Both the position numbers and the translations under genes were made by a program. A DNA stretch of 51,989 bases from a virus. A model generated the notes under the pieces. The model made no database searches and was not told the DNA's origin. It was given only the letters and a program-made list of their open reading frames with translations. Every line of letters begins with the position of its first letter. The first letter of the stretch is position 1. Below are positions 247 to 51,418 of the stretch, one piece after another. Where the stretch lies: positions 1 through 51,989 of the IMG/VR virus record IMGVR_UViG_3300025133_000150. One strand, 5' to 3'.

Positions 247-3200
247 ATGCGTTTTGCGCACATATCGGATACTCATATCCGAAATTTGAAGTATCATAAA
301 GAGTATAGAGAAGTTTTCAGCCAATTATATGAAAATCTTCGAGAACAAAAACCAGATTACATAATTCATTGCGGAGATATTGCACATACAAAGACTCAGA
401 TTAGCCCTGAGTATGTTCAAATGTGTTCTGATTTCCTTAAGAATTTAGCAGACATAGCACCAACTTATGTCATTCTCGGTAATCATGATGGCAACCTACG
501 GAACTCAAGCCGCCAGGACGCTCTTACGCCTATCGTAAGCGCGCTGCAACATCAAAGCCTATACCTACTACGAAACTCGGGGGAGACGCCTTTAAGGGGC
601 AATTTCTCCTTGAATGTACTATCTGTATTTGATGAAGAAAATTGGCAAAAAGCTTCTGACAATAATCGTATAAATATTGCTTTATATCATGGATCGATCT
701 CAAACTGTGAAACAGACTTGGGATGGAGAATGGAAAGGGGGGAAAATGATCTTGGCATCTTTAGTAATTTTGACTATGGTTTTCTTGGTGATATACACAA
801 GACCAATCAAATCTTGGACAAAAAAGGAAAGATACGTTATCCTGGCTCGACGGTCCAACAGAATCACGGAGAAACAAACGACAAAGGATATTTGATTTGG
901 GATATTGAGGATAAAGAAAACTTCACATGTGAGCATTTTGTTTTAAAAAATCCAAAACCCTTTATCACAATTCCACTAACGCCGCGAGGAAGAATTTCAA
1001 AGAAAGTTGAAGTTCAAAAAGGCGCCCGCCTGAGGCTTGTATCTGAAAATCATTTGGCGCTTGATGTTATTCGACGAGCGATTGATGTTGCAAAAACGCG
1101 CTTTAAGCCCGAAGCCATTACTTATTTAAATCGAGCACAAGGCGATCGAATTAATATCGAGGACTTGACCAATTTATTGGTAAAAGAAGATTTGCGCGAC
1201 ATTAATGTTCAGGAGGAATTAATTGAAGAATACCTGCAGGAGTATCAAGTCGATACCGAAACGACTGAAAAAATACTCAATCTTAATCGCATTTATAAAA
1301 CAAGAGTTGAGGAAGAGGAGGAGATCTCGCGAAACGTCAACTGGCGGCTCAAAAAATTAGAGTGGGACAATCTTTTTAATTATGGAGAAAAGAATTCTAT
1401 TGTTTTCAAAAACTTAAACGGCATTGTTGGAGTTTTCGGAAAGAACTTTTCTGGAAAATCCAGCATTGTTGATTCGATGCTCTACACGCTTTTTAATACA
1501 ACGTCGAAGAATAATCGCAAGAATCTTAATATTATCAATCAAAACAAGGATTACTGTCGAGGCTATGTTGAAATTGATGTCGGGGCAAAAACTTATAGAA
1601 TTGAAAGAGTTAGCACAAAATATACCAAAAAGCTTCGAGGCAACGTAACACAAGAGGCGAAGACTGATCTTGAGTTCAGTGTTTACGACAACGCCTTACA
1701 AGAAGAGAAAAGCCTGAACGGTACCTCAAGAATTGAGACTGACAAGAATATTAAAAAGATATTTGGAAGTATCGACGATTTTCTTTTAACTTCAATGGCT
1801 TCCCAGCTCGGCTCGCTTTCTTATATTAGCGAGGGCTCGACTCGTCGAAAAGAAATTCTCGCCAAATTTTTGGATCTTGAGGTCTTTGAGCGTAAATTCA
1901 AAATGGCCAAAGAAGAAGCTGGCGATATGAAAGCCTTGATTCGTCGAGGAGAAGATCGTCTGTTTGACGAAGAAATTAAAGAAGCTGAAAAAGTTTTTAA
2001 TAAAAATAATTCCAAACGAGAACAAAAGGATCTTGAATGTCTTGTTTTAAAAGAGAGCTTAATTAAAAAACAAAATGAGTTACAAGAAATTTCTCTAAAG
2101 TTAAAGGAAATTCCTGACGATATAATTGATATTAAGAATTTGATAAATGATATCAATGAGGCGGAAAATAAATTGCTGGCGTTAGAAAAAATTCAAGGTG
2201 ACACTTTATCTCAAATCGTAGAAAAAGAAGCCTATATTGAAAAGGCTGCAGAATTTCTTGAAGATTTTGATATTGAGGACATAAGAGAAAAACAAAAAGA
2301 AATTGATGACAAGATCAAGGAGTTGGAAGATCTTGAAAATGAAATTAATAAACTAGAAGAAAAAATAAAACAGCAGAAAAAGAAAATTAGTTTGTTAAAT
2401 GAGGTACCTTGCGGCGATAAATTTCCAACTTGTAAATTCATTCAGGATGCACATAGTACAAAAAAATCTATAGATAATTCATATGCTACCTTTGAAAATC
2501 TTAAAATTAATAAAGATGGTGTACATAAAAATATATCTGAATTGGAGCCTGGCAAGACACAGGAATATATTCAAAAATATGATGACCTTTGGCAGAGTTT
2601 TACTGAGGTCAAAAATGATTTAAATATTATTCAACTTGATTTAGAAAGAAATAAAAATGAGTCTTTCAAGATTAAAACATATTTAATAGAGCTTGAAAAG
2701 CAGAGAGAATATTATGATCAAAACAAAGAGCTTATTGAAAATTTGGAGACTCTACAGGCCTCTCAAGAAGAAGTTGAAGAAGAGGTTGCCAAATTAAGCA
2801 AACAATACGATCGATGTCAAAAGCTTATTCTTAATTTATATAAAGAAAACGGAACGCTAGAAGAAAGAGTCGAGAAAATTAAGCGAGATAAAGAAGAATA
2901 TATGACGTTGCGTGGTAATTTTTCTGCTTATGATTTGTTTATGAATTGTATGCATGCTAATGGAATTTCTTATGATATCATCAAAAAGCGCCTTCCGCTG
3001 ATTAATGCTGAGGTTTCAAAAGTTATTGCAAACATTGTTGACTTTGAAGTTTTTTTTGAAAATGAAGATAAAAAACTTGACATCTTAATTAAACATCCCG
3101 GCCACGATCCTCGCCCAATTGAAATGGGTTCTGGCGCTGAAAAAACAATTGCTGCCATGGCCATTCGTCTTGCACTCTTGAATGTTTCAACTTTACCGAA

Positions 3201-3399
3201 GGGGGATATTTTTGTTCTGGATGAGCCAGGAACTGCCCTAGATGAAGAAAATATGGAAGGGTTTATCAGAATCTTGGATATGATCAAAACTCAATTTAAG
3301 ACTGTGCTTCTCATTTCTCATCTAGATTCTTTAAAGGATACAGTGGATACTCAAATTATGATTGAAAGAAAAAAAGGCTATGCAGTTGTTAATCAATAA
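247..3399 (+). CDS. gp47-gp46 fusion: Mre11-like nuclease joined to Rad50-like SMC ATPase
   Basis: A recombination exonuclease that should process DNA ends for phage recombination and replication, with nuclease and ATPase in one chain of 1050 residues. The N-terminal part shows calcineurin-type nuclease motifs: SDTH (D8, H10), HCGD (D44), GNHD (residues 78-81), YHGS (H148) and GDIH (171-174). From about residue 365 an SMC-type ATPase begins, with Walker A GKNFSGKSS (G398-S405), a long coiled coil, a hook with C722 and C729 spaced C-x6-C, the signature MGSGAEKT near 960, Walker B IFVLDEP (D992, E993) and an ISHLD H-loop near 1025. In T4 these are two genes, 47 and 46. There is no stop, start or ribosome binding site at the junction. 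The downstream lysis-like and structural genes appear to belong to another transcription unit. Confidence 0.93.
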   Translation: MRFAHISDTHIRNLKYHKEYREVFSQLYENLREQKPDYIIHCGDIAHTKTQISPEYVQMCSDFLKNLADIAPTYVILGNHDGNLRNSSRQDALTPIVSALQHQSLYLLRNSGETPLRGNFSLNVLSVFDEENWQKASDNNRINIALYHGSISNCETDLGWRMERGENDLGIFSNFDYGFLGDIHKTNQILDKKGKIRYPGSTVQQNHGETNDKGYLIWDIEDKENFTCEHFVLKNPKPFITIPLTPRGRISKKVEVQKGARLRLVSENHLALDVIRRAIDVAKTRFKPEAITYLNRAQGDRINIEDLTNLLVKEDLRDINVQEELIEEYLQEYQVDTETTEKILNLNRIYKTRVEEEEEISRNVNWRLKKLEWDNLFNYGEKNSIVFKNLNGIVGVFGKNFSGKSSIVDSMLYTLFNTTSKNNRKNLNIINQNKDYCRGYVEIDVGAKTYRIERVSTKYTKKLRGNVTQEAKTDLEFSVYDNALQEEKSLNGTSRIETDKNIKKIFGSIDDFLLTSMASQLGSLSYISEGSTRRKEILAKFLDLEVFERKFKMAKEEAGDMKALIRRGEDRLFDEEIKEAEKVFNKNNSKREQKDLECLVLKESLIKKQNELQEISLKLKEIPDDIIDIKNLINDINEAENKLLALEKIQGDTLSQIVEKEAYIEKAAEFLEDFDIEDIREKQKEIDDKIKELEDLENEINKLEEKIKQQKKKISLLNEVPCGDKFPTCKFIQDAHSTKKSIDNSYATFENLKINKDGVHKNISELEPGKTQEYIQKYDDLWQSFTEVKNDLNIIQLDLERNKNESFKIKTYLIELEKQREYYDQNKELIENLETLQASQEEVEEEVAKLSKQYDRCQKLILNLYKENGTLEERVEKIKRDKEEYMTLRGNFSAYDLFMNCMHANGISYDIIKKRLPLINAEVSKVIANIVDFEVFFENEDKKLDILIKHPGHDPRPIEMGSGAEKTIAAMAIRLALLNVSTLPKGDIFVLDEPGTALDEENMEGFIRILDMIKTQFKTVLLISHLDSLKDTVDTQIMIERKKGYAVVNQ

Positions 3400-32358: not shown

Positions 32359-35300
32359 ATGTTTTTATTTGATAAATTAGATATAGAAGAACTCTTAGAT
32401 CCTCTTTTTATAGAGCGACGTCATTACTGTTACCAAGACGGCGATGGCGGCGACGGCGATGGCGGCGACGGCGGCGACGGTAATCCCCTTAATCCACGAC
32501 CGCCACGAGATTGTCCCGATGAAGATGATGACGAAGATGATGCTACCGATGAGGATGATGAAGGTAATCTATTAATTAGAGATTCTGCCGTAAGAGTGGC
32601 AGCCTTTCAGGAACAATGTTTTTTAATTGATTATCAAAAGACAATTCGCGAGGTAATCCAAGGCGGCCTGACCGCCCGCGATCGCCCGGTCACCGCCCTC
32701 AGCGCCCACCAAGGGACGGGGGAATTAGAAAAAGGGGCTTTGAATGGCCGCTGGCACGACCTGATTGCAATCGATGGTGAGCCATCAACGATCGTTAGCA
32801 AGTTCACAAAACGCAGCGGTGTGGAAGACTTTTTTCGATTCACACCAGCACAGTTATCTTTTCTTATCCCCAGGATGAGGTTATTCTTGGTTACATATAA
32901 AAATCCTGGCGCCGGCACCGAATCCGACGCCGGCCGGCCGCAAACAGTTGAGGAAGATAAAATTAAAGAATTTCATTTTGATGATCATACTCCTGAAAAC
33001 ATTGTTCAACAAATTATGAGCAAGGGAAGAGGCAGGGCATATGGCATAGGATTAAAAAGCTTTGATTATGAACTAGATGGGAAAGACCCCGCAACAACTT
33101 TGAAATCTATCAAAGCAAGATTACAATTAGTTTTTACAAGTTTTGATGCGCTGATGAAGGAGCAAGGAAATGGCTTGAAATTTTTAGACTTGTTGCTCCG
33201 AACCAAGAGAATGATTCCGCAATATGATCATAAAAAACCCTATGCAAGCAAAAATATATTAAATTTTTGTAGAACACCAAAACACGAACGTGATGTATAT
33301 CATCCGAATTCTGAATTAGTTTTTAATCCAAAATATCGCAGAATCAAAGCTTCTGTTGGGTGGGCTGAACCACCCTCAGACATTCCCAAAAACATTTTTA
33401 CATCAAGAGATCGCGCCCTTATTGAAGATATGCATCTTGATCTTTTCTTGGAAATGACAAATTATCAAATAGACTTTAACAACAATGGCACCGTCAGACT
33501 AACAATTGAATATAGGGCGTCTATTGAAGGCGAGCTATCAGAGCCTACTTCTGATATCTTTTTTATATTGAAAAAAAATATCAAAGATCAAGAGTTGAGG
33601 CGTAAAAATAAAGTTAAAAAGCTAAGAGAAAAGCGCGGCCACGATATTGATGAACTTGAGTCTGGCAGTCCAAATCGAAGCACGGCCGGCGACTGTTCAT
33701 CGCAGAAATCCCAGAAGCGAAAAATCAGGAAAGAGTTTAAAGACAGAATAGATAGAGTAACAAAAATAATGAATGCAAAAATCGAGATAATGAAGTTGCA
33801 TTTTTATAGAGAATTCTTGGAGCAGATGGTCGACCGTCAAAAAATTTATAGATTTCAAATTTCAAAACAGATATTGAAAGTACACAGGGCATATGTGCCG
33901 CAGGCCGGCGAATCGCTTGAGATTGGTAAGAAAGAGAAGCCAAACAAAACTTATGCAGATGCTCGTGAAAATTCAACGCGGCCGGCCCTCGAAGCCGATG
34001 TAAAAAAAGCCCTGGAGGCTTCTTTATGGCCTGTGCGACAATATTGCGGGGATGAGGGAATCAGAATTGATCCTATCGACTGTGAGCTGGGTAAATTACA
34101 GCGTGAACGCATGGCAGCACAAGAAGAGATGCCCCGCGATCGCGACAACGACGCCGGCTTGGGGGCCCCAGACCAGGGCGCCGGAAGTACTGCCCCCCCT
34201 GTCAATGAATGTGGCGAATCTCCCATGGGCCGCATGATCGATCAGACGGGATCCCGAGTTATATATTTTATGTATCTCGGTGATCTTCTTGATACCGCAA
34301 TGTATTATGTAAATCATCGAAATCCAAACCACATTGGCCTCAAGCCAGGCGTAGAAGGCACAAATGTGCGTCTGTGCACTGCCGCGGTTGATTTTCACAA
34401 CTTTGAAGACAGGTTTGATAGCGTTAATATTGCAGACATCCCAGTTTCTTTAGAACAATTTGTTGTATTTTTCAGAGACAAAGTTATCAAAAGGGGCCGC
34501 ACAAGCTATATGGCGCAGGTTTTCATTAAAGATGTTATGAACGATTTATTTTTTAAAGTTATGGGCGATGCCTGTTATGGCGGACGCGGCGCCCCCGTTC
34601 CGGCTTTAAGCACTACTATGATTTCAACTCGCCGTCGCCCCGCACCCGGTCTGCAACCCGGCCACGGTGTGGGCTTCGTCGAGGCAGATTCTGCCACAGA
34701 GCCGATCCCTCGGATTAGGCACACCGGTGGCACCCGCGCGCTCGGCTCCAACGTCGGCCAGGGCCAGGCTATGTGTAAAGGGACGGTTCACAACACTTGG
34801 GCATATCCTCGTTTGCTAAGGCCTGATGCTAAAATTGGAAAGCACAAAGTGAGTAAGTATTTTTCTCGGCCACGAGATTCAACGTCTTCTGATCAAATAA
34901 TCCATTATTATATTATTCATGGGATAGCTAGAAGTTTTACGACTCGTCACCCGAATCGAAAAAAAGATGAAAATGAAGGTATTTATCATTTGGGCCTCGG
35001 CCTTGATCGAGGCATTGTGAAAGAGATAAAATTTGAAGCTGCTGAAATAAAATATGCTGCTGAAGCTCGAACAATTTATGATGGCGAAGATGGCCTGGGG
35101 CAATTATTCCAAAAATTTAATGCCACCGTAGATCTATTTGGCTGCCCCATATTCAGGAATGGTCAATATATCTACATAGATCCGAAAACAATGGGCGTTA
35201 AATCTGACGTTGCACGCACAATTGGCCTCGGAGGCTATTACAACATTTATAATGTCATGGGGCAATTGACTCCCTCTGGCTATACTACGAGGCTTAGATG

Positions 35301-36063
35301 TATGTTTAATTCAAGTGGTATATGCCCAGATTCAGATCATGAAATAGCAGAAACACCAGATGCAATATTTGCGGAGACTCCAGGTGGAGCAGACGCGGCC
35401 CCAGCAGCATCGGGGACACCGGCCGGCGCAGGGATCCCGAGCCCTGGTCCACCGGGAACGTATTCATCCCGAGAAGAAGCCCGCGGCCGCAGCCAAAGCC
35501 CAGACTTTGATAAAGATTGGTCTGATGATGAAAAGACCGACTATTATGAATGTCTTAATGAGGGCTCTACACACGAAACATGTTCCGGCCTGGTCCAACA
35601 TCGCCGCATCAGCGAGATCACCCAGGGCGGCGGCCTGTGCTTTATTGCCGAAACTTTAATTTCCATGTATGACGGTACAACCAAGGCCATTAAAGATATT
35701 GTTGTTGGCGATATCGTGCTTTCATTAAAAGATGACAAATATGTAGAAGGCGTTGTGACAGAACACTTAATTCACCCTACCAACCAAACTATTGAAATAG
35801 CCAAGCTGGGCAACCTAATCGGAGAGCCAACTCATCCACTTTATGTCGATGGCCAGTGGCTTGAAATGAAAGAACTAGATAATGTGGAATTTGAATACAA
35901 ACATGTTGATATTTGGTACAACCTAGAGATAGATGGCAGAGATGTTTATGGCAGCGAACATAATTATATAGCAGAGGGATGGGTAGTTTCTGGCCTAGGC
36001 GATGATGAAATATTAAACAATACTTTCCAAAGACAGAAAATATTTAAAACAACACAAGGATAA
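32359..36063 (+). CDS. large tail/baseplate protein with C-terminal Hint (hedgehog/intein) domain
   Basis: A 1234-residue protein. The N-terminus holds a Gly-Asp repeat (residues 27-41) and an acidic tract. The middle looks like a virion protein with blocks such as VIYFMYLGDLLDTAMYYVNH and a coiled-coil segment (about 415-510). From Cys1094 to about 1222 there is a Hint domain: CFIAETLISMYDG, KAIKDIVVGDIVLS (block A), GEPTHPLYVDGQW (block B histidine) and YNLEIDGRDVYGSEHNYI (block F). The usual HN plus nucleophile of block G is absent, as is a homing endonuclease, so self-cleavage before Cys1094 rather than splicing is expected. Position suggests the baseplate hub or a central spike-associated part. 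The tail function is inferred; the Hint domain is clear. Confidence 0.8.
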   Translation: MFLFDKLDIEELLDPLFIERRHYCYQDGDGGDGDGGDGGDGNPLNPRPPRDCPDEDDDEDDATDEDDEGNLLIRDSAVRVAAFQEQCFLIDYQKTIREVIQGGLTARDRPVTALSAHQGTGELEKGALNGRWHDLIAIDGEPSTIVSKFTKRSGVEDFFRFTPAQLSFLIPRMRLFLVTYKNPGAGTESDAGRPQTVEEDKIKEFHFDDHTPENIVQQIMSKGRGRAYGIGLKSFDYELDGKDPATTLKSIKARLQLVFTSFDALMKEQGNGLKFLDLLLRTKRMIPQYDHKKPYASKNILNFCRTPKHERDVYHPNSELVFNPKYRRIKASVGWAEPPSDIPKNIFTSRDRALIEDMHLDLFLEMTNYQIDFNNNGTVRLTIEYRASIEGELSEPTSDIFFILKKNIKDQELRRKNKVKKLREKRGHDIDELESGSPNRSTAGDCSSQKSQKRKIRKEFKDRIDRVTKIMNAKIEIMKLHFYREFLEQMVDRQKIYRFQISKQILKVHRAYVPQAGESLEIGKKEKPNKTYADARENSTRPALEADVKKALEASLWPVRQYCGDEGIRIDPIDCELGKLQRERMAAQEEMPRDRDNDAGLGAPDQGAGSTAPPVNECGESPMGRMIDQTGSRVIYFMYLGDLLDTAMYYVNHRNPNHIGLKPGVEGTNVRLCTAAVDFHNFEDRFDSVNIADIPVSLEQFVVFFRDKVIKRGRTSYMAQVFIKDVMNDLFFKVMGDACYGGRGAPVPALSTTMISTRRRPAPGLQPGHGVGFVEADSATEPIPRIRHTGGTRALGSNVGQGQAMCKGTVHNTWAYPRLLRPDAKIGKHKVSKYFSRPRDSTSSDQIIHYYIIHGIARSFTTRHPNRKKDENEGIYHLGLGLDRGIVKEIKFEAAEIKYAAEARTIYDGEDGLGQLFQKFNATVDLFGCPIFRNGQYIYIDPKTMGVKSDVARTIGLGGYYNIYNVMGQLTPSGYTTRLRCMFNSSGICPDSDHEIAETPDAIFAETPGGADAAPAASGTPAGAGIPSPGPPGTYSSREEARGRSQSPDFDKDWSDDEKTDYYECLNEGSTHETCSGLVQHRRISEITQGGGLCFIAETLISMYDGTTKAIKDIVVGDIVLSLKDDKYVEGVVTEHLIHPTNQTIEIAKLGNLIGEPTHPLYVDGQWLEMKELDNVEFEYKHVDIWYNLEIDGRDVYGSEHNYIAEGWVVSGLGDDEILNNTFQRQKIFKTTQG
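32437..32481 (+). repeat. Gly-Asp coding low-complexity tract
   Basis: Repeated GAC/GAT and GGC codons encode DGDGGDGDGGDGGDG, a GC-rich tract near the N-terminus of the large tail protein. It could bind divalent cations or be a flexible linker. Confidence 0.85.
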
Positions 36064-36068
36064 ATTAA

Positions 36069-37364
36069 ATGCCAATATTTTTACCACCAAAATCTTTAGC
36101 AACAAATCAATCAAGTGCGATTGACTTGTACGCGTATAGAAAAAAATATAAGAAAGATGTTTTGGTTGATAAACAACAATTCTCTCGGCCGCCTGAAATT
36201 GGAACTGCTGATTTGTGGTATGACAGAAACTTATATGGAAAAATTGACAGAAAAGGAAATATTATTGTTGCTCGCGAAAGTCAACTGAGATCCTTACAGA
36301 CAAAGGATAACAGAACATATTATACTTTAAATTTTATTTCGATAGCTTATAATCAATTGATGCTTGAGATGAAAACTCTTTTAAAGCAGAATTCCATACC
36401 AAATCAAAAAACAATACTTAGAGCACTTTCTCCTGTTAGGGCGTGGGAAGGACAGCATCAGCCATATCACAAGTATATGGTTGGATTATTTGATATGTTC
36501 GTTCTTCATTTGGAAGCGAAGAGGATAGAGCATCGTATTTCAAATTTTAATGAATTTGTGGAAGAATTTTTTATACACATAAGAAACAACGTTGCGGTGA
36601 AAGGGTCGCCATTTACATTTTCCAGTTTTATTGCTAGCAATCTGGCTCCAGCGAACTGTAGTGGGCTGATGATTGATCTGGCTCGCGCAAGACCATCGGA
36701 AGATCTCCCAAAACAAGATATTTTTGTTGGTGATATTAACTTTAATAATTTTAAAAAGTTAGCAAATAAATTTGGTTTCGTGATTGATAGAAATATGCCA
36801 TGGCGGCTTATTGCTAATTTAAATTCTGAATCAATGCAAATTATGATGGCTCAGCCGGTTTTTGATGTTACATACCAGTATGGTCCAAAAAACGTTTTTG
36901 ATAATCATTATAGAAAAACATTTATTTTGGATTATAGCCTGATAAGAAACTATATGTACGCCATGTACGATAGCTTACTTCAATATAAATCAAAATATAC
37001 AGAATCTAAGTTTTATGTTTGTAAAAACAATGTCGGAGGTCTTTTGGATAAAAATGTTTATAGAAAAGAGCTTACAGATCATGAAAAAAATGATGTTTAC
37101 ACTTACGAAAATTATTGGATGGAAAAGGTTTTTAGATTCAGGCTTTTAGAACTCAAGCATGATCTGGAAGAACAAGATATAAAACAGATAATTAAACGAG
37201 CCAAGGCTCTCTATCGATCTAGGTCTCCAGATCACGCATACGGATATTTGAATAAGATAACGAAAGTTTATTTTCTAAGTGAATATAACAGAACTCGTGT
37301 TTTAGCAAAATCTGGCATCCATAAGACGCCGGCACGAAATCTTGTCATAACATATGCAAAATAA
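36069..37364 (+). CDS. putative virion protein of unknown function
   Basis: A 431-residue soluble protein, beginning MPIFLPPKSLATNQSSAIDL and rich in Tyr, Asn and basic residues. Blocks such as PVRAWEGQHQPYHKYMVGLF and YDSLLQYKSKYTESKFYVC are visible but belong to no family I can name. It starts 5 nt behind the Hint-domain gene and is the last gene before the sigma70-like promoter of the replication cluster, so it belongs to the tail operon. Confidence 0.62.
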   Translation: MPIFLPPKSLATNQSSAIDLYAYRKKYKKDVLVDKQQFSRPPEIGTADLWYDRNLYGKIDRKGNIIVARESQLRSLQTKDNRTYYTLNFISIAYNQLMLEMKTLLKQNSIPNQKTILRALSPVRAWEGQHQPYHKYMVGLFDMFVLHLEAKRIEHRISNFNEFVEEFFIHIRNNVAVKGSPFTFSSFIASNLAPANCSGLMIDLARARPSEDLPKQDIFVGDINFNNFKKLANKFGFVIDRNMPWRLIANLNSESMQIMMAQPVFDVTYQYGPKNVFDNHYRKTFILDYSLIRNYMYAMYDSLLQYKSKYTESKFYVCKNNVGGLLDKNVYRKELTDHEKNDVYTYENYWMEKVFRFRLLELKHDLEEQDIKQIIKRAKALYRSRSPDHAYGYLNKITKVYFLSEYNRTRVLAKSGIHKTPARNLVITYAK

Positions 37365-37414: not shown

Positions 37415-37420
37415 GTGTTT

Positions 37421-38587
37421 ATGTTATTTCAAGTGCTCGATAATAAAAATGGTTGTGTAAATTTTTACTGCGATGGCTCTTTCGAAGAGCAAGTTGCCGA
37501 AAAATATAATATGACTTGGAAACAAAATAAAGTTGTTGGTGACAGAAACGTTGATTATGCTCAAATCTATGCTCTTGGGCAAGAATTGGATGATGCATGC
37601 CCAGAACACTTGAAGGTCGACTGGCTGGCGATACAAGCAAAGATGCACAATTTTTACATTAGTTTTCAGATTGCTAAATTAAATTTAGACGATGTTTGTT
37701 TTTATGATCTTTTGCCGCAAAAATTTTTAATAAAATATTGCAATTTAAAAAATGACATATGCAAGTGGGTATTTGAAAATTACGAGAAGCCAGAGAATTA
37801 TGATTTAATAAAAAATATTGTTGAATTTGTTGCTAACATTGAATCCCGAGAGCTTAATTTAAATTGGGATAAGATCGATCCTACAAATGTAAAATCACGG
37901 GCAATATTAAAAAAGAAGGCATTTATGTCGAAAACAGTTCGCTATGATCCATGGAAAACAAAGACCGGAAGACTGGCAACAACTTTTAATAGTTTTCCTA
38001 TATTGACGATGAACAAGGAAAGTCGAGCAATAATTGAGCCTCAAAATGATTTATTTTTGGAGCTTGATTATAATTCTGCAGAATTGAGGGTTGCGTTTGG
38101 CCTTTTGGGAATGGATCAGCCAACAATTGATATTCATGATTGGATTCTGGAAACTGTTTTTAATAATAAAATTTCGAGGGAAAAATCCAAAGAAAAAACA
38201 TTTGCTTGGCTCTACAATATGAAGGCCTCAAACAAGAAGTTGGAAAAGATATTTGATAAACAAAAGATTTTAGATTATTGTTATGATGGTCAATCTATAA
38301 AAACCCTTTATAACAGAAAAATTGCTGTTGAAGAGAGAAAAGCATTAAATTATGTTATTCAAAGTACAACCAGCGATTTGGTGCTCAAACAAGCAATTAA
38401 AATAAGCAAATTGCTTGAAAAGTCTTTTATTGCCTTTATTATTCATGATAGCATCGTTATTGATGTTGACCAGGCTGAAAAAAATAAATTAAATGAAATT
38501 ATCGAAATATTTTCGGATACAGATTTTGGAAAATTTAAAACAAACATTTCTTTGGGTAAAGATTTTGGAAACATGAGAAAAATATAA
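37421..38587 (+). CDS. small family A DNA polymerase (PolA-like, polymerase domain only)
   Basis: 388 residues with the three palm/finger motifs of family A polymerases. TGRL precedes motif A LELDYNSAELRV (D216). Motif B keeps R253, K257, F261 and Y265 in REKSKEKTFAWLY. Motif C is IIHDSIVID (H342, D343) with Ser in place of the usual Glu after the catalytic Asp. There is no recognisable 3'-5' exonuclease or 5' nuclease domain. The ATG at 37421 has no Shine-Dalgarno, since it coincides with the predicted transcription start; a GTG at 37415 is the alternative. It probably fills gaps or replicates DNA with the neighbouring gp32, FEN-type RNase H and gp41 helicase. T4 has no such gene. Confidence 0.85.
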   Translation: MLFQVLDNKNGCVNFYCDGSFEEQVAEKYNMTWKQNKVVGDRNVDYAQIYALGQELDDACPEHLKVDWLAIQAKMHNFYISFQIAKLNLDDVCFYDLLPQKFLIKYCNLKNDICKWVFENYEKPENYDLIKNIVEFVANIESRELNLNWDKIDPTNVKSRAILKKKAFMSKTVRYDPWKTKTGRLATTFNSFPILTMNKESRAIIEPQNDLFLELDYNSAELRVAFGLLGMDQPTIDIHDWILETVFNNKISREKSKEKTFAWLYNMKASNKKLEKIFDKQKILDYCYDGQSIKTLYNRKIAVEERKALNYVIQSTTSDLVLKQAIKISKLLEKSFIAFIIHDSIVIDVDQAEKNKLNEIIEIFSDTDFGKFKTNISLGKDFGNMRKI

Positions 38588-39447
38588 TGTCAACGATTAT
38601 TGGTTTAGGAAATGCTGGCTGTAACATTGCCAAAAAATTAGATGAATATCCTCAATATGAGGTGCTATACATCGATTCGGAAGATCGCAATGAAAAAAGA
38701 TTTAAACTTGTGCCGCCACAAGAGAGTCATCAAAAATATGAAGAAAATTTTCCATCAATAAAGAGATTTCTTAAGAAATTGCCAGGTCCGTATACACTTA
38801 TCTTAGGAGGTTCTGGAATGATTTCTGGTTGCGTGTTGTCGCTTCTCGAACAACTAAACACCTCAGATATATCTGTTTTGTACGTGAAGCCTGATATCGA
38901 TTTATTGTCGGATCTGGCCTACAAACAAGAACGTCTGGTTTTTCATGTTTTGCAACAATATGCACGTTCGGACTTATTAAATAAGATATTTGTTGTTTCA
39001 AATTCTCAATGTGAGGAAATTCTACAAAATTTAACAGTTAAGAATTATTTCAATAAAATTAATGAACTGATCGCAACAACGTACCATATGTATAATGTTT
39101 TTCAGAATATCAAGCCAATCATTCAAACACATACGGTGCCCCAAGAAATGTGTAAAATAGCGACTTTTGGGCTGATTGAGGCGGATGGTAAAGAATCTCT
39201 ACTATATAATTTAAAGTTTCCGAGGGAAAAACATTTGTATTATTCAATATGTGAGAAAAATCTGGAATCTGACGCATCATTAATAAAAAACATAAAAGAG
39301 CAAGTTAGATCCTACATGACAGATAAGATGAAAGTTTCATATTCAATTTACGAGAATGAATATGATCGAAATTATATCTATTCCTGTTCATACGCGTCAA
39401 TGATTCAGGAAGAAAAATTTGATTTTCCCCTTGACTCCGATGCATAG
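38587..39447 (+). CDS. tubulin/FtsZ superfamily-like protein
   Basis: A 286-residue protein with the layout of an FtsZ/tubulin GTPase domain: a first nucleotide loop IIGLGNAGCNIAKKL (G6, G8, G11), an acidic strand end VLYIDSE, the signature-like LILGGSGMISGCV (residues 73-83, corresponding to GGGTGSG) and then a strand and helix of the FtsZ type (ISVLYVKPDIDLLSDLA). The C-terminal part has strand-rich sequence and no long tail. The signature is altered, so GTP hydrolysis and polymer formation are not assured. It starts on the last base of the PolA-like gene and is followed by gp32, so it belongs to the replication cluster. A dinucleotide-binding Rossmann protein is the main alternative. Confidence 0.6.
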   Translation: MSTIIGLGNAGCNIAKKLDEYPQYEVLYIDSEDRNEKRFKLVPPQESHQKYEENFPSIKRFLKKLPGPYTLILGGSGMISGCVLSLLEQLNTSDISVLYVKPDIDLLSDLAYKQERLVFHVLQQYARSDLLNKIFVVSNSQCEEILQNLTVKNYFNKINELIATTYHMYNVFQNIKPIIQTHTVPQEMCKIATFGLIEADGKESLLYNLKFPREKHLYYSICEKNLESDASLIKNIKEQVRSYMTDKMKVSYSIYENEYDRNYIYSCSYASMIQEEKFDFPLDSDA

Positions 39448-39459
39448 TGTTGCTATAGT
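39431..39459 (+). promoter_or_regulatory. extended -10 sigma70-like promoter of gene 32
   Basis: TTGACT, a 17-nt spacer and TATAGT preceded by TGC. The -35 lies within the end of the tubulin-like gene. The start would fall near 39466, giving a leader of about 68 nt that contains the hairpin described next. Confidence 0.78.
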
Positions 39460-39476
39460 ATATACACAATAAGCGG

Positions 39477-39494
39477 CTCGATAAATTAATCGAG
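39477..39494 (+). promoter_or_regulatory. gp32 leader hairpin, possible autogenous control site
   Basis: A perfect 6-bp stem CTCGAT / ATCGAG with loop AAATTA, 40-57 nt before the gp32 start codon. A later TTAAT (39506-39510) could pair with the loop region as a weak pseudoknot. From there to the start the leader is A-rich with AAAAGGAG. T4 gene 32 is repressed by its own product through a pseudoknot at nearly the same distance. Confidence 0.55.
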
Positions 39495-39533
39495 TTGACT
39501 ATACCTTAATGGACAAAACAAAAGGAGTTTACA

Positions 39534-40271
39534 ATGGGTATTGATATAAAGAAGATGCGCGCCAAGATGGACGCGCTTGAGAACCGAGGCGGCAAGAATA
39601 TTTTTTGGCGTCCTGATGATGGAGAGACCACCATTCGCCTGGTGCCGACTGCCGATGGCGATCCTTTCAAGGAGTATTGGTTTCACTACAACGTCGGAAA
39701 CAACCCGGGCTTTTTGAGCCCGAAGAAGAACTTCGGCGAAGAAGATCCGCTGGATGATTTTATCCGCCAGCTTTATCGCGAAGGCGGTGAAGATAATACG
39801 CGAATGGCCAAGAAGCTTGGTGCCCGCCAGCGATTCTTCACACCGGTCATTGTAAGGGGCCATGAGGACCAGGGCGTCAAGATCTGGGGGTATGGCAAGA
39901 CAGCCTATAAGGAGCTGCTTAGCCTAGTATTAAACCCTGATTACGGCGATATCACTGATACTGCCGAGGGAACCGATCTTGTCATCAACTATGGCAAGCC
40001 CCCTGGAGCGCAGTTTCCACAGACGTCGATTACGCCTCGTCGCAAGACTTCTGCTTTGTCCGCGGATGAGGATAAGACTCACGCTTGGCTTGATTCTATT
40101 CCTAATTTCGAGGACGTTTTTGAGCGTAAGACCCCGCAAGAGGTTCGCACCATGCTTGACGAATTCCTCCTTGGTCAGGATGATGCCGAAGATGTCTCGA
40201 CTGAATCGACTCGTTATGAGAAGAGTGATAGTCCGACCGATCGAGCATTCAAGGATCTTCTAAATGGATAA
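39534..40271 (+). CDS. single-stranded DNA-binding protein (gp32-like)
   Basis: The replication and recombination SSB, 245 residues (T4: 301). A basic N-terminal cooperativity region (MGIDIKKMRAKMDALENRGG), the OB-fold core with FWRPDDGETTIRLVPTADGD and KEYWFHYNVG, VIVRGHEDQGVKIWGYGK and an acidic C-terminus (LLGQDDAEDVSTE) follow the gp32 plan. The zinc-binding Cys/His set of T4 gp32 is missing in the PGFLSPKKNFGEEDP segment. Codon use is richer in G/C than in the neighbours, fitting high expression. It has its own promoter and structured leader and overlaps the next gene by 8 nt. Confidence 0.92.
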   Translation: MGIDIKKMRAKMDALENRGGKNIFWRPDDGETTIRLVPTADGDPFKEYWFHYNVGNNPGFLSPKKNFGEEDPLDDFIRQLYREGGEDNTRMAKKLGARQRFFTPVIVRGHEDQGVKIWGYGKTAYKELLSLVLNPDYGDITDTAEGTDLVINYGKPPGAQFPQTSITPRRKTSALSADEDKTHAWLDSIPNFEDVFERKTPQEVRTMLDEFLLGQDDAEDVSTESTRYEKSDSPTDRAFKDLLNG

Positions 40272-40953: not shown

Positions 40954-42063
40954 ATGGCTAAGAAAAAGAATACAAACGGTAGATTAGACACAACAAGTTT
41001 AAGAGATTTAATCAACAAAAAGGCAGGCGAAACTCTTGCTTATGATCTTACAAAGGACAATCCAACAGAAGTCAAAGAATGGATTCCAACCGGATCAACA
41101 TGGCTCAATAAAATTGTTTGTGTCGGTAATATAAATGGCGGAGTTCCTGTTGGTAAAATCACAGAATTGGCCGGCCTGGAGGGGTCAGGTAAATCTTATA
41201 TGGCGGCTCAAATTGCTGCAAATGCCCAAAAAATGGGAATCTCGGTTGTTTATTTCGATTCAGAATCAGCGCTCGATCCGGCGTTTCTGGCACAAGCCGG
41301 CTGCGACGTCGCCAACATTGTCTACACCCAGGCAAAAACTGTTGAATTTGTGTATGAGACCATGGAAATGCTCTTGGGCGAAACCGATAAGAAAATTTTA
41401 TTTGTCTGGGATAGCGTAGCCCAGACACCAACCAGAAAAATGCTAGATGAGGATTTTGATCCGCAATCATCTATTGGCTATAAGGCGCGCCTTTTGTCTA
41501 AGGCAATGAAGAAGATGACAATACCTCTTGCTAACAATCAGTGCACTTTGCTGGCTTTGAACCAGTTAAAGACAAATATTACAACCGATCGCGCTTCTTT
41601 GATGACAGAACCATATGTCACACCCGGGGGCAAAGCGTTGCCATATTCATATTCTTTACGAATTTGGCTCACTGTGCGAAAAGCGAAAGCGTCGTATGTT
41701 ACCGATGAACACGGCTACAAGATTGGATCTGAAGTTAAGGCTCGAATTAAGAAGTCACGTTTCGGATCTCTAGGGCGAGAGTGCACATTTAAGATTCTTT
41801 GGGGTGGCAACGTTGGAATATGTGACGAAGAAAGCTGGTTTGATGCAATCCAGCCATCTGAACATTTGCAGCGTAACGGCGCATGGTATACCCTGGTGCA
41901 TGAAGACGGTACGTCAGAAAAGTTTCAATTTACCAAGTGGCACGAGAAAATTAAGAATGAAAAGTTTAGATCGCGAGTATTGCAGATAATGGACGAAGTT
42001 GTTGTTCAGAGCTGGGGCCCCCTCGATAAGGATGAATCTGAAAATATTCGCATTGTCTCATGA
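40954..42063 (+). CDS. uvsX: UvsX, RecA-like recombinase
   Basis: The strand-exchange protein for recombination-dependent replication, 369 residues (T4: 391). Walker A GLEGSGKS (G74-S81), catalytic Glu in VVYFDSESALDP (E104), Walker B ILFVWDSVA (D153) and the DNA-binding loop region NNQCTLLALNQLKTNI followed by TPGGKALPY are all present. It works with gp32 and the gp47-gp46 nuclease. Located behind the twin-hairpin segment and before the deaminase gene. Confidence 0.95.
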   Translation: MAKKKNTNGRLDTTSLRDLINKKAGETLAYDLTKDNPTEVKEWIPTGSTWLNKIVCVGNINGGVPVGKITELAGLEGSGKSYMAAQIAANAQKMGISVVYFDSESALDPAFLAQAGCDVANIVYTQAKTVEFVYETMEMLLGETDKKILFVWDSVAQTPTRKMLDEDFDPQSSIGYKARLLSKAMKKMTIPLANNQCTLLALNQLKTNITTDRASLMTEPYVTPGGKALPYSYSLRIWLTVRKAKASYVTDEHGYKIGSEVKARIKKSRFGSLGRECTFKILWGGNVGICDEESWFDAIQPSEHLQRNGAWYTLVHEDGTSEKFQFTKWHEKIKNEKFRSRVLQIMDEVVVQSWGPLDKDESENIRIVS

Positions 42064-50557: not shown

Positions 50558-51418
50558 ATGAACATCGAAGATCTTGTTGGCAATACACCAATAGTTGAAT
50601 TAAAATCTAATATTTTCGCAAAGTTAGAAACTTTTAATTTATCAGGAAGCATTAAGGATCGGATTGTACTATATATACTCAATAACGCTGAAAGGAAAGG
50701 CTTAATTAATGAAAACACTGTTTTGGTTGAAGCGACGAGCGGCAACACTGGTATTGCTCTCTCTTTGCTTGGTGCTGTAAAAGGCTATAAAGTAAAAATT
50801 ATAATGCCTATCAATATGTCTGAGGAGCGTAAAGAGTTAATGCGGCTTCACGGAGCAGACATAATTGAAGTTGGCCCGAATGATTTCCCCGCCGCAATTG
50901 CGCTAAGGGACAAGCTTGTCCGCGATAATAATGATTGGTGGTCTTTGAACCAATTTGAGAATCCATTAAACATTGAATGCCATGAGAAAACAACTGCTCG
51001 TGAAATTATAAGACAAATATTTATTGACCGTCGAAAGGAGCCAGAAGTATTAATTTGTGGTGCAGGCACTGGAGGCACCATAATGGGCGTGGGAAGGGCC
51101 CTTAAACGAATCAATAAAGATATCAGGGTCATACAGGTCAAGCCAGCCGAAGATGCCTTAAATCATGGAATACAGGGCATTGGAGACGGCGGAGATTATT
51201 TGGTAGATCCTGATTTTATTGATGAAATTATCTATATTAAAACTGATGACGCAATAGAAAAGGCCAAAGAATTATCTTTAAATGGCTTATTGGTTGGCAT
51301 TAGTTCCGGCGCCAATATATTGGCAGCAGAACAATGTGCCGAAACTCACAAGGGCCCTGGGGCAATTATCACTTTTCTTTATGATCGCGGCGAAAGATAT
51401 TTATCTCTTTACTCTTAG
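50558..51418 (+). CDS. cysteine synthase (O-acetylserine sulfhydrylase)-like PLP enzyme
   Basis: A 286-residue beta-family PLP enzyme, slightly shorter than cellular CysK/CysM (about 300-320). VGNTPIVEL opens the protein; SGSIKDR gives the PLP lysine K33; VEATSGNTGIALS is the substrate loop; CGAGTGGTIMGVGRAL binds the phosphate; VGISSGAN and DRGERYLS close the site. It would make cysteine from O-acetylserine and sulfide in the infected cell, an auxiliary metabolic gene. Related folds make other beta-substituted alanines, so the true product could differ. Confidence 0.88.
   Translation: MNIEDLVGNTPIVELKSNIFAKLETFNLSGSIKDRIVLYILNNAERKGLINENTVLVEATSGNTGIALSLLGAVKGYKVKIIMPINMSEERKELMRLHGADIIEVGPNDFPAAIALRDKLVRDNNDWWSLNQFENPLNIECHEKTTAREIIRQIFIDRRKEPEVLICGAGTGGTIMGVGRALKRINKDIRVIQVKPAEDALNHGIQGIGDGGDYLVDPDFIDEIIYIKTDDAIEKAKELSLNGLLVGISSGANILAAEQCAETHKGPGAIITFLYDRGERYLSLYS

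Follow-up and report, generated by a model that had tools for sequence, protein, structure and literature searches.

What does a tubulin-like protein do among the DNA-copying genes of a T4-like virus, and is it a tubulin at all? The tubulins known from phages, which are carried mainly by jumbo phages, form filaments that act in positioning. The gene considered here, TUB (for tubulin-fold protein), lies at 38587..39447 of the window, i.e., the whole 51,989-nucleotide stretch of viral DNA that was analyzed, and encodes 286 aa from an ATG start. Like its motifs and the neighboring cluster features described below, it is on the + strand. An earlier note on this DNA had proposed a tubulin/FtsZ-like protein on the basis of two glycine-rich loops; translation bears out both the ORF and the loops, with GLGNAGCN at residues 6–13 and LGGSGMISG at residues 73–81. 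The T4-like setting that the note described was also recovered, with terminase, portal, major head protein, sheath, gp32, UvsX, RNase H, gp41 and Nrd present.

Conservation and predicted fold of TUB

Relatives of TUB are found in at least 172 other uncultured viral contigs, with 32–74% identity across the aligned members. Pairwise dN/dS is 0.03–0.08 for the pairs that allowed an estimate of dS, several of them close to saturation. Given this retention and these ratios, TUB is not a chance ORF, and it is under strong purifying selection. Searches of Pfam, PHROGs, NCBIfam, PDB sequences and phage records returned no relative of known function; low-E matches to coiled-coil and TcdB_N families were discarded as short helical matches. 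No relative was found by tblastn in 50,697 phage records, using two different members as queries, and the one pattern run against the GTDB genome collection gave none either. None of the 49 aligned members reaches the gathering score of PF00091: eight touch this profile below its cut-off (best E 0.0086), and the 286-aa TUB of the present sequence gives no match. A literature search, with most subscription papers and preprints outside its range, yielded no description of the family. The long-contig records each contain one TUB match, and no second tubulin that could serve as a heterodimer partner was found in them.

We built an AlphaFold2 model of TUB from the 49 aligned members (pLDDT 92.4, pTM 0.90). 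Its best solved match by Foldseek is Bacillus TubZ (4ei7; E 5.5e-13, probability 1.00, TM 0.66 by query length), followed by FtsZ of many species, and the best 50 PDB matches listed are all TubZ or FtsZ. The model of L009, a relative 47% identical to TUB, is of similar quality (pLDDT 93.9) and matches FtsZ with E 3.6e-14; both models match TubZ/FtsZ over their full length. The GTPase domain, the long H7 (predicted at residues 154–174) and the activation domain of the canonical fold are all present in the predicted structure, and the elements follow the canonical order S1-T1-H1-S2, S4-T4-helix, S5, H5, S6-T6, long H7 and C-terminal domain. The last predicted element is S10 (263–270), after which comes a 16-residue low-confidence tail. 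The fold and loop order suggested by the earlier note are hence reproduced by two high-confidence models, with tubulin-fold proteins at the top of the fold search. Profile comparison, which the note had also proposed, gave a separate sequence-level signal toward PhuZ: the TUB profile aligns with that of PhuZ at E 1.1e-4 (hhalign, probability 56%, spanning T1–T4 only) and with that of FtsZ at a non-significant E of 0.18, where the true pair FtsZ and PhuZ gives E 1.8e-6 in the same test. Comparisons by hhalign with the single sequences of E. coli FtsZ and phiKZ PhuZ were non-significant; T1-T4-T6-H7 are collinear in the alignment with FtsZ.

A Rossmann-type dinucleotide-binding protein, whose GxGxxG merely imitates T1, would have weak sub-threshold Pfam matches to TrkA_N, Sacchrp_dh_NADP and similar families in its favor. 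Set against it are the full-length tubulin/FtsZ matches of both models, to the exclusion of other folds among the best 50 PDB matches listed, as well as the long core helix H7 and the C-terminal domain, both present in each model. The plain Rossmann dehydrogenase, named by the note as the outcome that would overturn its proposal, was looked for by fold search and not found; the tubulin/FtsZ matches rule it out at the level of predicted structure, and we give a Rossmann protein a negligible chance. Judging from the models, it is nearly certain that TUB has the tubulin/FtsZ fold.

A conserved nucleotide pocket and a drifted T7 face

The T1 glycine loop (38602..38625) retains G6, G8, G11 and C12 in 48 of the 49 sequences, the single exception being a truncated contig, and D30 is kept in all 49. 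The T6 loop carries N139 (39001..39003; 48/49), a guanine-contacting Asn by position, and the core helix H7 carries N159 (39061..39063; 49/49) within a tubulin-like LNxLI. By position, these residues would correspond to tubulin N206 and N228, the Asn that contact guanine from T6 and H7, a reading that fits the hhalign alignment with FtsZ. Entropy is low in T1 (0.62) and H7 (1.10) compared with a family mean of 1.66. The nucleotide-base pocket formed by T1, D30, N139 and N159 is conserved in the TUB family, and from this pocket TUB is likely to bind a guanine nucleotide.

Other elements of the fold are lost or degenerate. The T4 loop (residues 73–81; 38803..38829) has conserved G75, S80 and G81 and follows the family pattern G-[SA]-G-x-[IV]-S-G, the canonical GGGTG[ST]G occurring in 0 of 49 members. 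No T3 GAG/GxG loop is visible among the 49, where E49, Y51 and E52 are conserved instead. The T7 region (residues 176–189; 39112..39153), which in filaments extends to the nucleotide bound by the neighboring subunit, varies more than any other element of the family (entropy 2.28 vs. the mean of 1.66). TUB itself has E187 at the position of the catalytic acid and no acid at 184; across the family, both acids are present in 23 of 49 sequences, only that at 187 in 15 (including TUB), only that at 184 in 4, and neither in 7. The controls behave differently: the FtsZ T7 motif NVDFAD has an entropy of 0.13 (mean 1.0), and all 10 PhuZ sequences carry the two T7 Asp. Helix H8, between H7 and S7, is absent from the models of TUB and L009, as judged from modeled monomers and from a DSSP summary in which 3-10 helices might go unseen. 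The combination seen in FtsZ and tubulin proper, a conserved T7 NxDxx[DE] followed by H8, is therefore not found in this family, and the TUB model also lacks the PhuZ-type C-terminal helix H11 with its acidic knuckle.

The T7 catalytic face of the TUB family is without constraint. Tubulin, FtsZ and phiKZ TubZ are described as having a common filament interface, built from T7, S9 and the base of H8 (PMC3678025), so that the face used there for filament formation is the one that has drifted in TUB. An acid is nonetheless kept at 187 in 38 of the 49 sequences, so that many members could hydrolyse GTP. On balance, TUB is probably not a canonical filament driven by T7 GTPase activity. A tubulin fold that keeps its pocket and not its usual catalytic loop may have been put to an unusual use.

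With T3 gone, T4 degenerate, H8 missing and T7 least conserved, TUB would represent a new tubulin-fold family, and we hold it very probable that it stands outside FtsZ, tubulin, TubZ and PhuZ. FtsZ matches TUB structurally over the full length (TM about 0.65–0.73) and is collinear with it from T1 through T4 and T6 to H7, but TUB has none of the GGGTGTG, T3 GAG, NxDxxD T7, H8 and long C-terminal tail of FtsZ. TubZ of Bacillus plasmids and phages, although the best solved match, is about 14% identical and about 100 residues longer. PhuZ, the tubulin of phiKZ-like jumbo phages (PHIKZ039), is phage-encoded like TUB, with similar T1 and T2 and a T4 without GGGTG[ST]G; it differs in its T7 DxxD (10/10), T3 GxG (10/10), helix H11 and acidic tail (PMC3678025), in its jumbo genomes and in not adjoining PolA in the regions examined. 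FtsZl1 and FtsZl2 provide a precedent for diverged members that possibly do not form filaments canonically, but they keep GGGTG(S/T)G and have another domain architecture and context (Makarova and Koonin 2010, PMC2875224), while the TUB family keeps T6-H7 and not T7. The best viral structural match is an FtsZ-like protein of an uncultured Caudovirales virus in BFVD (UniProt A0A6J5RW92; E 6.2e-12, TMq 0.75), which at 452 aa shares 15% identity with TUB; only six BFVD entries reach E ≤ 1e-3, and no close relative is among them.

The gene cluster around TUB

Immediately upstream of TUB lies a short, 390-aa PolA-family DNA polymerase (37415..38587; Pfam DNA_pol_A 9.8e-14), whose TAA stop shares its A with the TUB ATG. 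The next gene, 86 nt on, encodes a gp32-like single-stranded DNA-binding protein (39534..40271; Pfam gp32 3e-12, phrog_1192 5e-24), so that the gene order given in the earlier note holds, and a UvsX/RecA-like recombinase follows (40954..42063; phrog_97 1.3e-64). PolA, TUB, gp32 and UvsX are collinear in nearly all relatives, with synteny in about 75 loci, and in many of them, distant ones included, the stop codon of PolA overlaps or adjoins the start codon of TUB. Starting the search from gp32, we found TUB between short PolA and gp32 in 68 of the 68 loci with enough upstream sequence, six further loci without upstream room being left out of this count. TUB thus belongs invariably to the DNA-copying gene cluster in a large and uncultured group of marine T4-like viruses.

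The short PolA is the sole DNA polymerase detected in the long contigs of the relatives; no additional PolB was detected in these records, while control genomes gave matches. Inspection of the 390-aa protein by eye shows both motif A (DYNSAELR) and motif C (IHD) to be retained, and Pfam reported no 3′–5′ exonuclease domain. The longest contigs of the TUB clade measure 155–190 kb, below jumbo size, and are classed as linear, with completeness not given. Mean p-distances are larger for TUB (0.56) and PolA (0.53) than for gp32 (0.37) and UvsX (0.30), and the PolA and TUB distances correlate with r = 0.91 (partial correlation 0.65 given gp32 and UvsX), a co-divergence to which the linkage of adjacent, coupled genes could by itself contribute. 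Between TUB and gp32, a sigma-70-like promoter sequence (TTGACT-17-TATAGT with TG before the -10; 39431..39459), which is a consensus match only, is retained in the closest relatives, suggesting a PolA-TUB unit that is separate from the one starting with gp32. The leader between TUB and gp32 (39445–39540) can form a hairpin (z -2.26). The gp32 of T4 controls its own expression at the leader, and the hairpin may be comparable.

The same cluster also exists without TUB, in the cultured Flavobacterium phage immuto and Microcystis phage Mel-JY01 and in a 484-kb uncultured phage. In these three, the interval between PolA and gp32 is filled by an uncharacterized protein of ~130–150 aa. Its family (HRKKESNTLYTINALN; L090:1346-1801, L089:3621-4064, L088:7785-8174) occupies this interval in another large virus group and has at least 522 matches in viral contigs. 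Among 80 loci examined for this family, PolA lies upstream in 80, gp32 downstream in 79 and TUB in none, and the small protein was not found in TUB-clade contigs. Homology between the two occupants was considered and rejected (E 0.27, from a shallow alignment). Of all observations, this mutual exclusivity hints most strongly at a role of TUB with the polymerase or the replication fork; because the small family is without known function, sharing the slot need not mean sharing a role.

Possible roles of TUB

Based on this setting, we consider a replication-linked role for TUB reasonably probable. The reading that we prefer over a PhuZ-type moving filament, with a probability of roughly 0.5, is that of a nucleotide-binding scaffold or switch associated with the replisome. 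Here, the divergent tubulin-fold protein would be co-produced with the short PolA-type DNA polymerase that the virus encodes, and would bind guanine nucleotide. At the replication fork or replication site, it would serve PolA and gp32 as a scaffold or switch that depends on the nucleotide, in the form of a monomer, a dimer or an assembly independent of T7-driven GTP hydrolysis; in sister viruses, the equivalent task would fall to the unrelated ~150-aa protein encoded in this slot. The fullest form of this idea, a tubulin recruited as a replisome part, i.e., a nucleotide-sensing, non-filamenting polymerase partner that is kept throughout a widespread clade of marine viruses and is interchangeable with the unrelated small protein of sister viruses, is unlikely at present.

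The earlier note had envisaged a polymerizing GTPase that positions replicating DNA or, failing that, an unusual non-polymerizing member of the fold. Its fold stands; the positioning GTPase is so far unsupported, with T7 the least conserved element, T3, H8 and the PhuZ knuckle absent and T4 devoid of GGGTG[ST]G. That scenario is possible but not favored, and the note's own alternative fits the data better. In its general form, with viruses of less than jumbo size using a PhuZ/TubZ-like cytomotive GTPase filament to position capsids or the viral DNA being replicated, we regard it as somewhat unlikely, even though TubZ is the top solved match of the shared fold, PhuZ is the sole family with a sequence-profile signal and likewise does without GGGTG[ST]G, and PhuZ uses an altered T3 and a C-terminal tail (PMC3678025). 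The acid at 187 in most members and the short acidic tail of TUB's nearest relatives point the same way. Beyond the missing GxG, H8 and H11/knuckle and the drifted T7, this explanation has to contend with the sub-jumbo size of the longest contigs and with chimallin (phiKZ gp54), for which tblastn gave no match in six records, a weak test without positive control.

A different use of the drifted face would be mimicry of host FtsZ, in which the conserved nucleotide face of TUB caps or poisons the T7 face of the host protein and halts division during infection. A one-sided capper would combine conservation of its upper (nucleotide) face with a lack of constraint on the lower (T7/H8) one, as is seen in TUB, and unrelated phages attack FtsZ through T7 gp0.4, lambda Kil, P1 Icd and T5 Hdi (PMC13423816, PMC3961180, PMC11897509, PMC10714956). 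These known inhibitors are, however, small accessory proteins, whereas TUB belongs to the fixed gene content of the replication cluster, and conservation of the pocket alone explains the upper-face pattern; we regard mimicry as very unlikely. In TUB, selection has maintained the nucleotide pocket and relaxed on the catalytic loop. Such a tubulin fold, encoded by a core replication-cluster gene in a common group of marine viruses with no contig of jumbo size, would broaden the known roles of tubulin folds.

Several other genes of the window deserve mention. Two genes upstream of PolA, the ORF at 32359-36063 (1234 aa) has a C-terminal Hint-type domain (35638-35991; Pfam Vint E 3.8e-7); together with the following ORF (36069-37364), for which no known relative was found, it diverges much faster than the replication genes. 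At 247-3399, an SbcD-like nuclease and an SbcC-like ATPase are joined in one 1050-aa ORF resembling a gp47-gp46 fusion, matching phrog_100 over residues 1–364 and phrog_77 over 295–1049. Finally, the region 50558-51418 encodes a PALP-type pyridoxal-phosphate enzyme (Pfam 7.6e-61), possibly an auxiliary metabolic gene.
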